The position numbers and the translations under genes are program-made. The notes under the pieces are model-generated. The model was given only the letters and a program-made list of their open reading frames with translations, was not told the DNA's origin and ran no database searches. Positions 26,593 through 30,547 of a stretch of DNA of 64,000 bases are shown piece after piece (position 1 is the stretch's first letter; every line of letters begins with the position of its first letter). This DNA comes from Dyella marensis (GTDB lineage: Bacteria > Pseudomonadota > Gammaproteobacteria > Xanthomonadales > Rhodanobacteraceae). The DNA lies in the NCBI RefSeq assembly GCF_900112865.1, contig NZ_FONH01000016.1:1-64000 (forward strand). Reading direction: 5' to 3'.

Positions 26593-29280
26593 TCAACGCA
26601 GGATCGCCGCCGGATCCTGCTTGCCCTTCAGCGCGGAGCACAGCAGCGTGGCCTCGGTGTTCTGCGCCAAGCCGCGCTCGGCGCCGGTGACTTCCTTCGC
26701 GCGGGTCTTGAAGAACTCCTGCAGGCGATCCGCCTCGGCCTTCGAGCAGCCGCCGCCGCCCATCAGGCCCGGCAGGCGACCGCCGGCGAAGCTGCCGGTG
26801 CGCGCCACGATCTTGTCGTAGTTCGCCACCGACCACTTCCACACCGCATCGCGGCCGGCCTGGGTGTCGCGGTTGCCGCGCAGCAGCGCGGCCATCTCGC
26901 CGACCTTGACCGACTTGTCCAGCGACAGGTCGCGCACGCGCTCGGCCTGCGCCGCATCGCTGGCCTCCGACAGGCCCGCCAGGATGGCGTTGCGCTGGGC
27001 CGGGTCGCTGGTCTTCGGCAGCTGGGCGATCAGTGCATCGACCGCGCTCTTGCCGTGCTCCTGCACCGCCACGCCGAGGGCGCTGCCGAGCAGGTTGGAG
27101 TCGGCGGCGGCAAAGTCCAGGCTGCCGTCGGCCTTGCCCTTGAGCACCGCATCGCCCTGCTTGAGCAGTTCCGCGCGCACTTCCGGCAGCTTCACGTCCA
27201 GGCCGAGGAAGTTGGCCAGGGTGGCGCGCTGCAAAGAGTCGCCGTCGGCCTCGCCGTCCTTGCGCTGGTAGCCCAGGCGCTGCAGTTCCGGCAGGTAGGA
27301 GGACTTGGCCCAGGCCACCAGCTTGGCGCGCTGCGCGTCGGTGGTGGCGAGCTGGTCGTAGATCCAGCCGAAGGTGTTCATCGGCGCGGTGGACACCTCG
27401 CGCACCTTCGAGGCGGTCAGCGGCTTGAGCGCGGCCAGCGCGGAACCGGCGTCGATATCGCCGCGGCGGAACGCGGCATTCACCGCGTCGCCATAGGCCA
27501 GCTGCTCGGCGTCGGCCAGCTTGCCGATCTGCTTGCCGAGGTTGGCCAGGTCGCTCTTGTCCATGCTGAAGCGGTAGTAGCCGCTGCCGTTGGCATTGGG
27601 CATCACCCAGGTCTGCGCGGTGGCGCCCGGCAGCGCCATGGTGCCCTGCGCCTTGTCGAGCAGTTCGCAGGCGACCTTGCTGCCGTCGGCGGTGGCGTAG
27701 CGCACGCACACCGGCACGCCCCACAGGTGGTTGGCGTCGCCGGTGCTGCCCAGCGGCAGGTAACGGCTCTGGCTCAGGTGCAGCACGGTCTTGCCGCCTT
27801 CCTGCGCCAGCCTGGTCTGCACGTAGGGCACGCCCGGCTGGTTGAGGAAGCTCTTGAACGCGTTCTTGAAGTCCTCGCCCTTGTCGGCGGCCTTGGCGAT
27901 CGAGTCGATCAGGTCCTCGGCAGTGGCATTGCCGAACTTGTGGTCCTGGATGTAGGCGCGCATGCCCTTCTGGAACACCGGCTCGCTGACATAACCCTCG
28001 AACATGCCCAGCACCGCCGCACCCTTCTGGTAGGTGATGCCGTCGAAGGCGGTCTCGATGTCGCCGTTGCCGGTGATCGGCTGGCGGATCTTGCGCGTGG
28101 TAACCAGGCTGTCGCCGTTCATCGCACCCTGCGCGCCGCGCACGCGGTCGAGGTCGGCGCGGTATTCCGGATGCACCTTCTGGGTGACCTTCTGCTGCAT
28201 CCAGGTGGCGAACGCCTCGTTGAGCCACAGGTCGTCCCACCAGCCCATGGTCACGGTGTCGCCGGTCCACTGGTGGGCCAGTTCGTGCGCGGTGACGTTG
28301 AAGGAGCCGCGCACGTACTGGGCGGCGGAATCCTTGTCGAGCAGCAGCAGCCAGTCGCGGAAAGTGACCAGGCCCGGGTTCTCCATCGCGCCGGCGGAGA
28401 AGTCCGGCGCGGCGAGCAGGTCGAGCTTGTCGAACGGATAGCCGAAGCCGTAGTAGTCCTCCAGCGCCTTGATGATGCTCGGCGTCTCGCCCAGCACGTG
28501 CTGCATGCGGTGGCCTTCGCCCTTGGCGGCGATGCCGCGCAGGTCGGTGGACTGCTTGCGGTACTCGGAAGCCGGGATGGTCGGACCGTTGACCACGTCC
28601 CACGGACCCACGCCGAATGCCACCAGGTAGGTCGGCAGCGGCTGGGTGGTGGCGAAAGTCAGCGTCTTCCAGCCGGCGGCAGCCTTCTCTTCCTTCACCT
28701 GCTTGGTGTTGGCGATGCCGACTTCATCGGCGGGGATGGTCAGCTTCAGGTCGAACGGCGTCTTGAACGAGGGCTCGTCGAAACCGGGGAAGGCGAAGCG
28801 CGCGCTGATCGGCTCCATCTGCGTCATCGCGTACGGCTGGCCTTCGTGGCTGACCTTGTACAGGCCCTGCAGCTGCTGGTTGAGCGGCGCGGCGTATTCG
28901 ATCGCGACGGTCAGCTCCTGCGGCTGCATGGTGCCGCCGAGGTCGATGCGCACCACGCCTTCCTTCGGTGCCGCCTCCACGTACTTGCCGGCGTGCGTCT
29001 TGCCCTTGGCGTCGGTGATGGTGACCTTGCTCACCTTCAGCTCGCGGCCGTGCATCCAGATGTGGTCGGAGGCCTGCTCCAGCTTCAGCTTGATCACGGT
29101 GGTGCCGGAGAAATCCTGCTGCTTCGGATCCACCTTGAAAGCCAGCTGATAGGACTCCGGCATCGCCCAGCGCGGCAGCTTGCCTTGCGGCTGGTCGGAG
29201 GCGGCGGGGGTGGCGGCCAGGGCGGCGCCGCAGGACGCGGCAAGGACGCTCAGCACGAGCGGGCGGACGAAACGACGCAT
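26593..29280 (-). CDS. Exported M1-family zinc aminopeptidase
   Basis: An 895-residue metallopeptidase with a Sec signal peptide (1-22, AALA site), so it acts in the periplasm or outside the cell. Seen: the GAMEN substrate motif just upstream of the zinc site, H332-E-L-A-H336 and the third ligand E355 in LNEAF. The C-terminal half is a long helical ERAP1-like domain, giving the usual length for the family. It removes N-terminal residues from peptides. The start is set at MRRFVRP because the signal peptide begins there. The leader on the minus strand is separated from the oxyR region by a strong terminator, so it probably has its own promoter near 29300-29400. Confidence 0.92.
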   Translation of the reverse strand: MRRFVRPLVLSVLAASCGAALAATPAASDQPQGKLPRWAMPESYQLAFKVDPKQQDFSGTTVIKLKLEQASDHIWMHGRELKVSKVTITDAKGKTHAGKYVEAAPKEGVVRIDLGGTMQPQELTVAIEYAAPLNQQLQGLYKVSHEGQPYAMTQMEPISARFAFPGFDEPSFKTPFDLKLTIPADEVGIANTKQVKEEKAAAGWKTLTFATTQPLPTYLVAFGVGPWDVVNGPTIPASEYRKQSTDLRGIAAKGEGHRMQHVLGETPSIIKALEDYYGFGYPFDKLDLLAAPDFSAGAMENPGLVTFRDWLLLLDKDSAAQYVRGSFNVTAHELAHQWTGDTVTMGWWDDLWLNEAFATWMQQKVTQKVHPEYRADLDRVRGAQGAMNGDSLVTTRKIRQPITGNGDIETAFDGITYQKGAAVLGMFEGYVSEPVFQKGMRAYIQDHKFGNATAEDLIDSIAKAADKGEDFKNAFKSFLNQPGVPYVQTRLAQEGGKTVLHLSQSRYLPLGSTGDANHLWGVPVCVRYATADGSKVACELLDKAQGTMALPGATAQTWVMPNANGSGYYRFSMDKSDLANLGKQIGKLADAEQLAYGDAVNAAFRRGDIDAGSALAALKPLTASKVREVSTAPMNTFGWIYDQLATTDAQRAKLVAWAKSSYLPELQRLGYQRKDGEADGDSLQRATLANFLGLDVKLPEVRAELLKQGDAVLKGKADGSLDFAAADSNLLGSALGVAVQEHGKSAVDALIAQLPKTSDPAQRNAILAGLSEASDAAQAERVRDLSLDKSVKVGEMAALLRGNRDTQAGRDAVWKWSVANYDKIVARTGSFAGGRLPGLMGGGGCSKAEADRLQEFFKTRAKEVTGAERGLAQNTEATLLCSALKGKQDPAAILR

Positions 29281-29401
29281 GAGAATTTCCCCAGGGGACA
29301 CAAAGAGCCTTGCAAGCTAGGAGCTGGCATGACTTCGGACACAGTGCCAGAAGACATGGCATTCCCGCTGCTGCGCAGCATCGCGCTTCGCTTCGTGCAC
29401 G

Positions 29402-29436
29402 AAAAAAACCGGCGGCGAAGAGGCTTCGCCACCGGT
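29402..29436 (-). terminator. Strong intrinsic terminator in the oxyR-aminopeptidase gap
   Basis: Minus strand: a 13-bp stem with one G-U pair (29436-29424 with 29420-29408), a 3-nt loop and seven T. No annotated gene ends here, which is the main support for a separate short transcript, or for an attenuator in the aminopeptidase leader. Confidence 0.88.
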
Positions 29437-29500
29437 GGGGAACCGCGCGCCTGCGGGGGGAGGGGCAAGAGTGGCGCGCGGATGGAGCAAGACTTGGTGA
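29402..29500 (-). ncRNA. Candidate OxyS-like small RNA, divergent from oxyR
   Basis: On the minus strand a TTAGAA (-35, 29535-29530), 18-nt spacer, TAATCT (-10, 29511-29506) promoter abuts the OxyR site. It would start an RNA near 29499. The RNA holds a perfect 9-bp stem (29473-29481 with 29443-29451) whose 21-nt loop carries CTTGCCCCTCCCCCC, a C-rich anti-Shine-Dalgarno-like stretch. A strong terminator follows. Expected size is about 98 nt, near the 109 nt of E. coli OxyS, which has the same position and orientation. No good reading frame with a ribosome site fits within. The promoter, start and regulation are inferred; the two stems and T run are seen. Confidence 0.45.
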
Positions 29501-29534
29501 GGCGAAGATTAGGCATTTCGCACGGATTGTTCTA

Positions 29535-29571
29535 ATTGATTGTTCTCATGATCGTGATAGATTCCGGCTAT
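29535..29571. promoter_or_regulatory. OxyR binding site upstream of oxyR
   Basis: ATAGATTCCGGCTAT (29557-29571) matches 9 of 10 fixed positions of the OxyR motif ATAGnTnnnAnCTAT. Seven bases further (29535-29549) a weaker half matches 6 of 10, giving the two-motif, 7-bp-spaced layout that an OxyR tetramer contacts. It fits autoregulation of oxyR and activation of a divergent transcript. Confidence 0.65.
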
Positions 29572-29596
29572 TGTCCTGCCTGCCGCGGCCCGCCTG

Positions 29597-30547
29597 ATGA
29601 ATCTGCGCGATCTCCAATACCTCGTCGCCCTGGCCGAGCACCGGCATTTCGGCCGCGCCGCCGAGGCCAGCTTCGTCAGCCAGCCCACCCTGTCGACGCA
29701 GATCAAGAAGCTGGAGGACGAACTGGGCGTGCCGCTGGTCGAACGCACCCCGCGCAAGGTGCTGCTGACCGAGACCGGCCGCGAGATCGCCCGCCGTGCG
29801 CGCGGCGTGCTGTCGGAGGTCGACGAGATCAAGGCGATCGCGCAGCGCACGCGCGATCCGGAATCCGGCACCTTGCGCCTGGGCATCTTCCCCACCCTCG
29901 GCCCTTACCTGCTGCCGCACTTGGTGCCGCTGGTGCGCCAGCGCTTCCCGCGGCTGGAACTGCTGCTGGTGGAAGAGAAGACCGAGCAGGTGATCCGCAT
30001 GCTGCGCGAAGGCTCGCTGGATGTCGGCGTGCTGGCCCTGCCCTTGCACGAGGACAGCCTGCACACCGAATTCCTGTTCGAGGAACCCTTCGTGCTGGCC
30101 GTGCCGGAGAATCATCCGCTGGCGCACAAGAAACATCGTCTCAAGCTGGGCGACCTGGAAGACGAAAGCCTGCTGCTGCTGGAAGACGGCCATTGCCTGC
30201 GCGACCAGGCGCTGGAGGTGTGCCAGCTGGCCGGCGCCGGCGAACGCTCGGGTTTCCGTGCCACCAGCCTGGAAACGCTGCGCCAGATGGTCGCCGCCAA
30301 TGTCGGCATCACCCTGCTGCCCACGCTGGCGATCAAGCCGCCGGTGGCGCGCACCGATAACGTGCACCTGGTGGAATTCGCCGGTCATCCACCCAGCCGC
30401 CGGATCGCGCTGGTGTGGCGCAAGAGTTCGTCGACTGGCACATTTCTGAAACGCTTCGCCGAGGTGATCCGCGGCATGCCGCCCGAACTGCTGCGGCCGG
30501 AACTGAACGGAGCCAAGCCGGCGAACCGCCCGCGCGCCTCGACCTAA
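29597..30547 (+). CDS. oxyR: Hydrogen-peroxide-sensing LysR-type regulator OxyR
   Basis: A 316-residue LysR regulator: N-terminal winged HTH (about 1-60, with FGRAAEASFVSQPTLSTQIKKLE), a linker helix, then the effector domain. The redox pair is present: C200 in EDGHCLRDQ and C209 in ALEVC, nine residues apart as in E. coli C199/C208. Peroxide oxidises this pair to a disulfide and turns the protein into an activator of catalase, peroxidase and related genes. An OxyR motif lies 26-62 nt upstream of the start, so it probably controls its own gene. No catalase or ahpC gene is in the window. Confidence 0.95.
   Translation: MNLRDLQYLVALAEHRHFGRAAEASFVSQPTLSTQIKKLEDELGVPLVERTPRKVLLTETGREIARRARGVLSEVDEIKAIAQRTRDPESGTLRLGIFPTLGPYLLPHLVPLVRQRFPRLELLLVEEKTEQVIRMLREGSLDVGVLALPLHEDSLHTEFLFEEPFVLAVPENHPLAHKKHRLKLGDLEDESLLLLEDGHCLRDQALEVCQLAGAGERSGFRATSLETLRQMVAANVGITLLPTLAIKPPVARTDNVHLVEFAGHPPSRRIALVWRKSSSTGTFLKRFAEVIRGMPPELLRPELNGAKPANRPRAST

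Follow-up and report, generated by a model that had tools for sequence, protein, structure and literature searches.

The window analyzed here, a 64-kb stretch of the genome of the soil bacterium Dyella marensis, encodes OxyR on its plus strand (29597..30544; OxyR equivalog NF008361 of NCBIfam, 332.8 bits with a cut-off of 329). Divergent from oxyR, on the minus strand, lies a predicted stand-alone small RNA of ~97 nt (29402..29498), assigned from its fold, its promoter, and a match to the model R1 described below. Between the two is a 37-bp motif, ATAG-N7-CTAT-N7-ATGA-N7-CAAT (29535..29571, minus strand), which we take to be an OxyR-type operator and scored with a matrix built from 18 loci in which ahpC is accompanied by the same element. 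A -35 hexamer, TAGAAC (29529..29534), abuts the operator and is separated by 17 bp from a -10 hexamer, TAATCT (29506..29511), both on the minus strand. An earlier note on this DNA had read the promoter as TTAGAA-N18-TAATCT; its -10 and the contact between the -35 and the OxyR box are retained here, but its register is one base off, the register common to relatives being TAGAAC-N17-TAATCT (several ahpC loci have TTGAAC-N17-TATCTT). A simple sigma-70 scan returned no promoter site at its stringency. The 5′ end of the RNA was placed 7 nt after the -10 and may be off by a few nucleotides.

As the earlier note described, the RNA includes a perfect 9-bp stem with a C-rich loop and ends in a terminator. 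Hairpin 1 (29481-29443, minus strand), recognized from the fold and from covariation, has the 9-bp stem as its outer stem, and its loop carries CUUGCCCCUCCCCCC. Within this loop, the anti-Shine-Dalgarno-like C-tract CCCCUCCCCCC (29455..29465, minus strand) is the presumed pairing site, based on loop conservation and predicted accessibility: 10 of the 12 bases of GCCCCUCCCCCC are predicted to be unpaired with a probability of 1.0, and the first two with ~0.1. The intrinsic terminator (29436-29402, minus strand) was located by a terminator scan and by covariation; its stem spans 29436-29408 with 13 pairs and a loop of 3, followed by T7 (U7 in the RNA). The next gene on the same strand, outside the unit, encodes an M1-family aminopeptidase (26593..29280, minus strand; Pfam Peptidase_M1), called pepN here. 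Its ATG at 29280 lies ~120 bp downstream of the RNA element, and the terminator therefore separates the RNA from pepN. Before pepN, at ~29290-29365, the window has a conserved block of CTTCTGGCACTG, then GTCATG, then CCTAGC, found likewise in many of the compared loci; this block is probably pepN's own promoter.

Individual features of the locus were compared with chance. Taken alone, the terminator is no more than chance, being the only terminator-like site in 28500-30500, where shuffles of the same stretch average 1.2. C-tracts held in a stem of >=8 bp occur three times on the minus strand of the 64-kb window (hairpin 1 among them) and once on the plus strand; simulating 20 sequences of 64 kb gave 0.75 per strand on average. 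The 98-nt RNA at 29499-29402 has a predicted folding energy of -44.6 kcal/mol (z -5.9), equaled by none of 200 shuffles. Given that no single feature is rare by itself, the case for the element stands on its conservation.

Conservation was examined in a comparison set of the best 80 named oxyR loci, the closest matches among them being from Dyella. Thirteen elements were aligned with MAFFT and no structure fitting (alignment A1), and the model R1 was made from this alignment; A1 gives two helices, with changes on both sides in 8 of 19 pairs. Positions 29402-29483 score 82.3 bits against R1, the window being one of its 13 sequences. At E<1e-5, R1 matches 31 of these 80 loci; among the 233 family genomes, 95 have a match at E<=0.01. 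We inspected 90 matches from the family genomes; roughly twelve others, all weak, with E from 2e-4 to 0.01, were not included. All 65 matches with E<=1.0e-7 are at oxyR, as are 69 of the 90 overall; 21 had neither oxyR nor ahpC in their stretch (best E 1.7e-7) and were excluded from the alignments. The 69 oxyR-linked elements divide into 32 that are stand-alone and 37 that lie behind ahpC. The 69 sequences, of which 68 are distinct, have 97.1% of their cells in pairs. Changes on both sides are seen at 14 of the 19 pairs, compared with 8.8 in a shuffle control in which none of 500 was as high; the stand-alone and ahpC-linked sets taken separately show covariation in 12 and 10 of the 19 pairs, all three alignments (A2-A4) being model-fitted and thus leaning towards structure, which A1 does not. 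Both stems covary, so the conservation in related genomes on which the earlier note had staked its proposal is borne out. Among eight Rhodanobacter stand-alone loci, mean identity is 72% over the last 85 nt of the RNA, 52% over the next 60 bp, and 48% over the 25 nt after the -10. A longer variant of 152-157 nt, stand-alone and with several C-rich loops, an OxyR-type promoter, and a weak R1 match, is present at L066:2754-2910, L068:2757-2910, and L076:2759-2910.

The order was searched in an even draw of 398 genomes with strict filters, and 58 of these reached E<=0.001 against R1. Every match at E<=1e-7 was within the window's family, and weaker ones appeared in eight genomes outside it. In three of these eight (G488, G255, and G354), neither ahpC nor oxyR lies beside the match. 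The matches in G255 and G354 look like chance; that in G488, from another family of the order (L222:1480-1580), is a C-rich hairpin and terminator that come after an unrelated gene's stop codon. Such C-rich hairpins in 3′UTRs may be a more general feature of the order.

The neighborhoods of the 37 ahpC-linked loci bear on the origin of the element. There, ahpC is divergent from oxyR, its operon sits behind the same OxyR-box promoter, and the element starts 2-51 nt (median 18) past the ahpC stop codon. In 36 of the 37, ahpD starts 22-110 nt beyond the element; ahpD is found at none of the 32 stand-alone loci, and pepN is in the examined flank of 30 of them. The origin suggested by these neighborhoods differs from the reading in the earlier note: at all 37 loci, the stand-alone element has its homologue in the 3′ end of the ahpC transcript and shares the terminator there, one of the properties by which 3′UTR-derived small RNAs (sRNAs) are recognized. 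Orthologues were called at E<=1e-40 for ahpC and E<=1e-30 for ahpD, and the 233 family genomes contain ahpC in 92, ahpD in 91, and both in 91. All 37 ahpC-linked genomes encode both orthologues. A search at the same cut-offs found neither in any of the 32 stand-alone genomes, the window's genome included, where the best relative of this AhpC is 36% identical. From this absence, we conclude that both flanking protein genes are gone and that the element stayed. By family models, the AhpD of L086 scores 202.5 bits against TIGR00777, above the cut-off of 191.95, whereas Pfam places the AhpC of L125 among the AhpC/TSA peroxiredoxins, but its score of 143 falls below the cut-off of 272 for the NCBIfam AhpC equivalog; AhpC is therefore meant here in a broad sense.

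A strong element is missing from 55 of the 92 ahpC genomes. Among 17 of these examined by eye, about seven (L225, L226, L228, L233, L234, L236, and L239) have a C-rich hairpin, which in most cases lacks a U-tract terminator; at the remaining loci, the hairpin is absent or doubtful. Members of genus g16 (L225, L226, L228, L233, and L234) have kept the C-rich hairpin behind ahpC, with the U-tract terminator missing or replaced. The two parts are thus separable. Traces of the ahpC transcript were also sought 5′ of the hairpin. The 26 nt preceding it resemble ahpC 3′UTRs at p<=0.05 in 12 of the 32 stand-alone loci, against about two expected by chance (L102 resembles L095, for example). The corresponding 26 nt of the window show no such similarity (p 0.25), so its descent rests on the hairpin, promoter, position, and tree. 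The surroundings of the element vary as well: pepN was not found in the examined 3-kb oxyR-upstream flank of L003, L010, L011, L012, L018, and L061, where other sequence lies, and the oxyR-divergent locus seems to turn over often.

A codon-aligned, single-gene oxyR tree was built from 81 loci, of which 20 have ahpC plus the element, 17 the stand-alone element, 10 ahpC without the element, and 34 neither. States were set by eye, from the C-rich hairpin, for L025 (matched by R1 with E 0.0022) and L050 (unmatched by R1 at E<=1), both scored as ahpC plus element, and by hand as stand-alone for L066, L068, and L076 (E 0.0005 to 0.0018) and L039 (E 6.6e-6). The stand-alone state needs eight changes on this tree, and well-supported branches make at least six of them unavoidable; for the 37 loci that have the element, the number needed is six. 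A single clade of the 17 stand-alone loci is rejected (AU p 2.4e-5), and ahpC was therefore probably lost, with retention of its 3′UTR, several times. Rhodanobacter sp. B04 (L035), which is stand-alone, is sister to three ahpC-plus-element loci (100/98). Within the window's clade, three loci (the window, L003, and L006) have the element alone, and 11 lack both it and ahpC; the adjoining pair, L016-L017, retains ahpC plus the element. The basal loci L042, L063, L069, and L081 have oxyR-ahpC without the element, which suggests a direction from ahpC-linked to stand-alone. An earlier oxyR tree from the first 900 bases, unaligned, contained a long branch that disappeared after codon alignment and led to the same conclusion. 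The number of events comes from a single-gene tree, and exchange of the locus among species could give the same picture as repeated loss. Many relatives do without the RNA, given that 34 of the 81 loci have neither ahpC nor the element.

Retention of the promoter follows the presence of the RNA. Promoters were scored with a 66-bp matrix built on ahpC-plus-element loci, of which 18 of 20 were used and two fell outside the seed pattern. Median promoter scores are 65.3 for ahpC plus element (n=20), 53.0 for stand-alone (n=17), 25.2 for ahpC without element (n=10), and -1.2 for neither (n=34). The promoter is thus kept where the RNA follows and poor where there is none. The difference between the stand-alone and neither groups (p=4e-9) is largest at the -10 and the second half of the OxyR box; at the -35, the stand-alone median of 2.6 is lower than the 9.8 of ahpC-plus-element loci. 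The loop is retained as well, with CTCCC in 30 of the 32 stand-alone elements and 35 of the 37 that are ahpC-linked (65/69 in all) and TCCCC in 31 of 32 and 37 of 37, respectively. By its sequence, the conserved CUCCC loop is anti-Shine-Dalgarno-like. The earlier proposal of a short OxyR-controlled RNA divergent from oxyR, of about 98 nt, is well supported by comparison with relatives: promoter, structure, and covariation all point to a structured RNA of ~97 nt with a terminator.

Evidence for targets of the RNA, drawn from sequence matches, is weak. The motif GGGGAGGG occurs 2-10 nt before an ATG 39 times in the window's genome, versus three times for the reversed pattern. Because 17 of these 39 are copies of the repeat GGGGAGGGCACA..., and the copies examined are not at credible gene starts, the excess is not evidence for targets and was set aside. 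These 17 belong to a repeated element, GCGGGGAGGGCACAKGGATGTGCSC, which carries GGGGAGGG, a sequence complementary to the C-rich loop, and has many copies elsewhere in the window's genome (near position 1500 in each of L177-L180, L182, L183, L185, L188, L190, L191, L197, L203, and L204); this repeat is apparently REP-like. Two starts of genes for TonB-dependent receptors were followed individually. At L176, CGGGGAGGG before the ATG is kept in four of four close copies within the genus; a match to this start is found in 15 of 15 genomes, close copies occur only in three, which retain the motif, and GGGGAGGG is absent from the 12 more distant receptors examined. The start at L186 is matched in 2 of the 15 genomes. 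Loop duplex energies are -20.1 kcal/mol for L176 and -23.2 kcal/mol for L186, which places both just inside the best 5% when compared with 108 start regions of the window (the best 5% begin at -19.1 kcal/mol, and the best reaches -26.3).

We consider it probable that the element is a stand-alone OxyR-controlled sRNA descended from an ahpC 3′UTR and likely to repress G-rich ribosome-binding sites. Other explanations account for part of the same evidence. The terminator has been kept between the promoter and pepN, as it would be if its only role after the loss of ahpC were to block OxyR-driven transcription into the next gene, the RNA itself being a functionless relic; the -35 of stand-alone loci is weaker than that of ahpC loci, and action of the RNA in trans is something we infer. 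Such a role is unlikely, since a useless promoter would be expected to decay, as its score has in the 34 loci that lack both ahpC and the element, and since the C-rich hairpin, though unneeded for termination, covaries and retains its loop in stand-alone loci. That loop would suit any G-rich partner, and the available text of PMC3771888 describes sX13, an sRNA with C-rich loops, in a related family. The RNA might accordingly bind G-rich regulatory RNAs or compete with other C-rich sRNAs in place of repressing mRNAs, a role to which we assign a very low probability.

The proximity of pepN invites another interpretation, in which the hairpins form a 5′ leader that controls read-through into it: they lie on the same strand, ~120 bp upstream of its start, and most stand-alone loci have pepN in the examined flank. 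However, ahpC and ahpD flank the element in 36 of 37 loci, and it stands alone with no pepN found in the flank at L116 and L117 and likewise at L003 and L019. In addition, the conserved block upstream of pepN (TTCTGGCACTG..CCTAGC) comes after the terminator and is also present in element-free loci such as L002 and L004. Attenuation of pepN is thus highly improbable. The order of events might also be reversed, with an ancestral stand-alone RNA around which ahpC and ahpD were inserted, given that change counts alone do not supply the direction. The basal oxyR-ahpC loci without the element (L042, L063, L069, and L081) argue against this history, as does the unlikely step of inserting genes on either side of an element 90 nt long, and we regard it as exceedingly improbable.

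Descent of an sRNA from the ahpC 3′UTR thus remains our preferred reading. The compared sequences show that the element is homologous to the ahpC 3′ end, that its structure covaries, that the promoter has been retained, that both protein genes are missing, and that the stand-alone loci form more than one clade. The ancestral locus would have been arranged as oxyR on one side of the promoter region and, divergent from it, ahpC, the C-rich hairpin with its terminator, and ahpD. In the line leading to the window, and probably several times in the family, ahpC and ahpD would have been lost and the OxyR-box promoter, hairpin, and terminator kept. We propose that peroxide now drives only the RNA, since the protein genes are lost and these three parts remain. 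For the Dyella RNA, we infer transcription, peroxide induction, action in trans, and targets, as follows. Peroxide-oxidized OxyR would activate the promoter, as judged from the box, the ahpC promoters, and known OxyR biology, and the product would be an RNA of ~97 nt that ends at U7. Its exposed CCCUCCC-type loop would pair with G-rich ribosome-binding sites, as reported for sX13, and lower the translation of some mRNAs under peroxide. In relatives that have ahpC, the same RNA would either be freed from the tail of the ahpC mRNA or function as that tail.

We further lean towards a broader view, in which the RNA of the ahpC 3′UTR is the selected unit and the flanking genes were deleted around a 90-nt element in several lineages. 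The outcome would be an autonomous peroxide-response sRNA under an OxyR promoter, a convergent counterpart of OxyS. If true, this would make visible a route from an mRNA tail to a stand-alone sRNA gene; the birth of bacterial sRNA genes is largely an open question. The route is directly testable because close relatives show the states before and after, in apparently several independent cases. It would also give a non-enteric group an OxyR-controlled sRNA in the position of OxyS with an unrelated origin.

OxyS, the OxyR-activated sRNA of enteric bacteria, is induced by H2O2 and bound by Hfq. By sequence, the Dyella RNA resembles it in being divergent from oxyR, with an OxyR-type promoter, a length of ~100 nt, and a terminator at its end; unlike OxyS, it has a C-rich hairpin and appears to descend from an ahpC 3′UTR. 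The OxyS covariance model (Rfam 15) has no match in the window at the gathering score and is not among the matches with E<=5 in 29200-29700, and five relatives likewise have no Rfam match at the gathering score. The only Rfam matches at E<=5 in 29200-29700 are Hrs13 (RF02631; 15.1 bits against a cut-off of 52, E 0.48) and anti-hemB (RF02837; 12.7 bits against a cut-off of 49.5, E 3), both at chance level. The label "OxyS-like" in the earlier note is thus apt for position and presumed control, but not for sequence.

That note had also likened the C-rich loop to those of xanthomonad sRNAs, and the loop is indeed like that of sX13 of Xanthomonadaceae. According to the available text of PMC3771888, the C-rich loops of sX13 act on G-rich motifs and do not need Hfq, and its homologues always lie downstream of polA and have three stem-loops. 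Compared with sX13 as described there, the Dyella RNA shares a C-rich loop motif with an sRNA from a related bacterial family. It differs from the polA-linked sX13 in lying between oxyR and the aminopeptidase gene, and from its three stem-loops in having two hairpins, the C-rich one and the terminator.

sRNAs derived from 3′UTRs are a known kind. A literature search that took in few subscription papers found no description of an sRNA that has, more than once, kept the promoter of a lost parent gene. UdsC of Rhodobacter is a 3′UTR-derived sRNA, by the available text of PMC9779115, and like it, the RNA in Dyella's relatives is presumed to have a regulatory role and forms the end of a messenger transcript. 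Unlike UdsC and other 3′UTR-derived sRNAs, as far as the available description extends, the Dyella RNA has a parent gene that is no longer found, and the promoter of that parent directly precedes the RNA.
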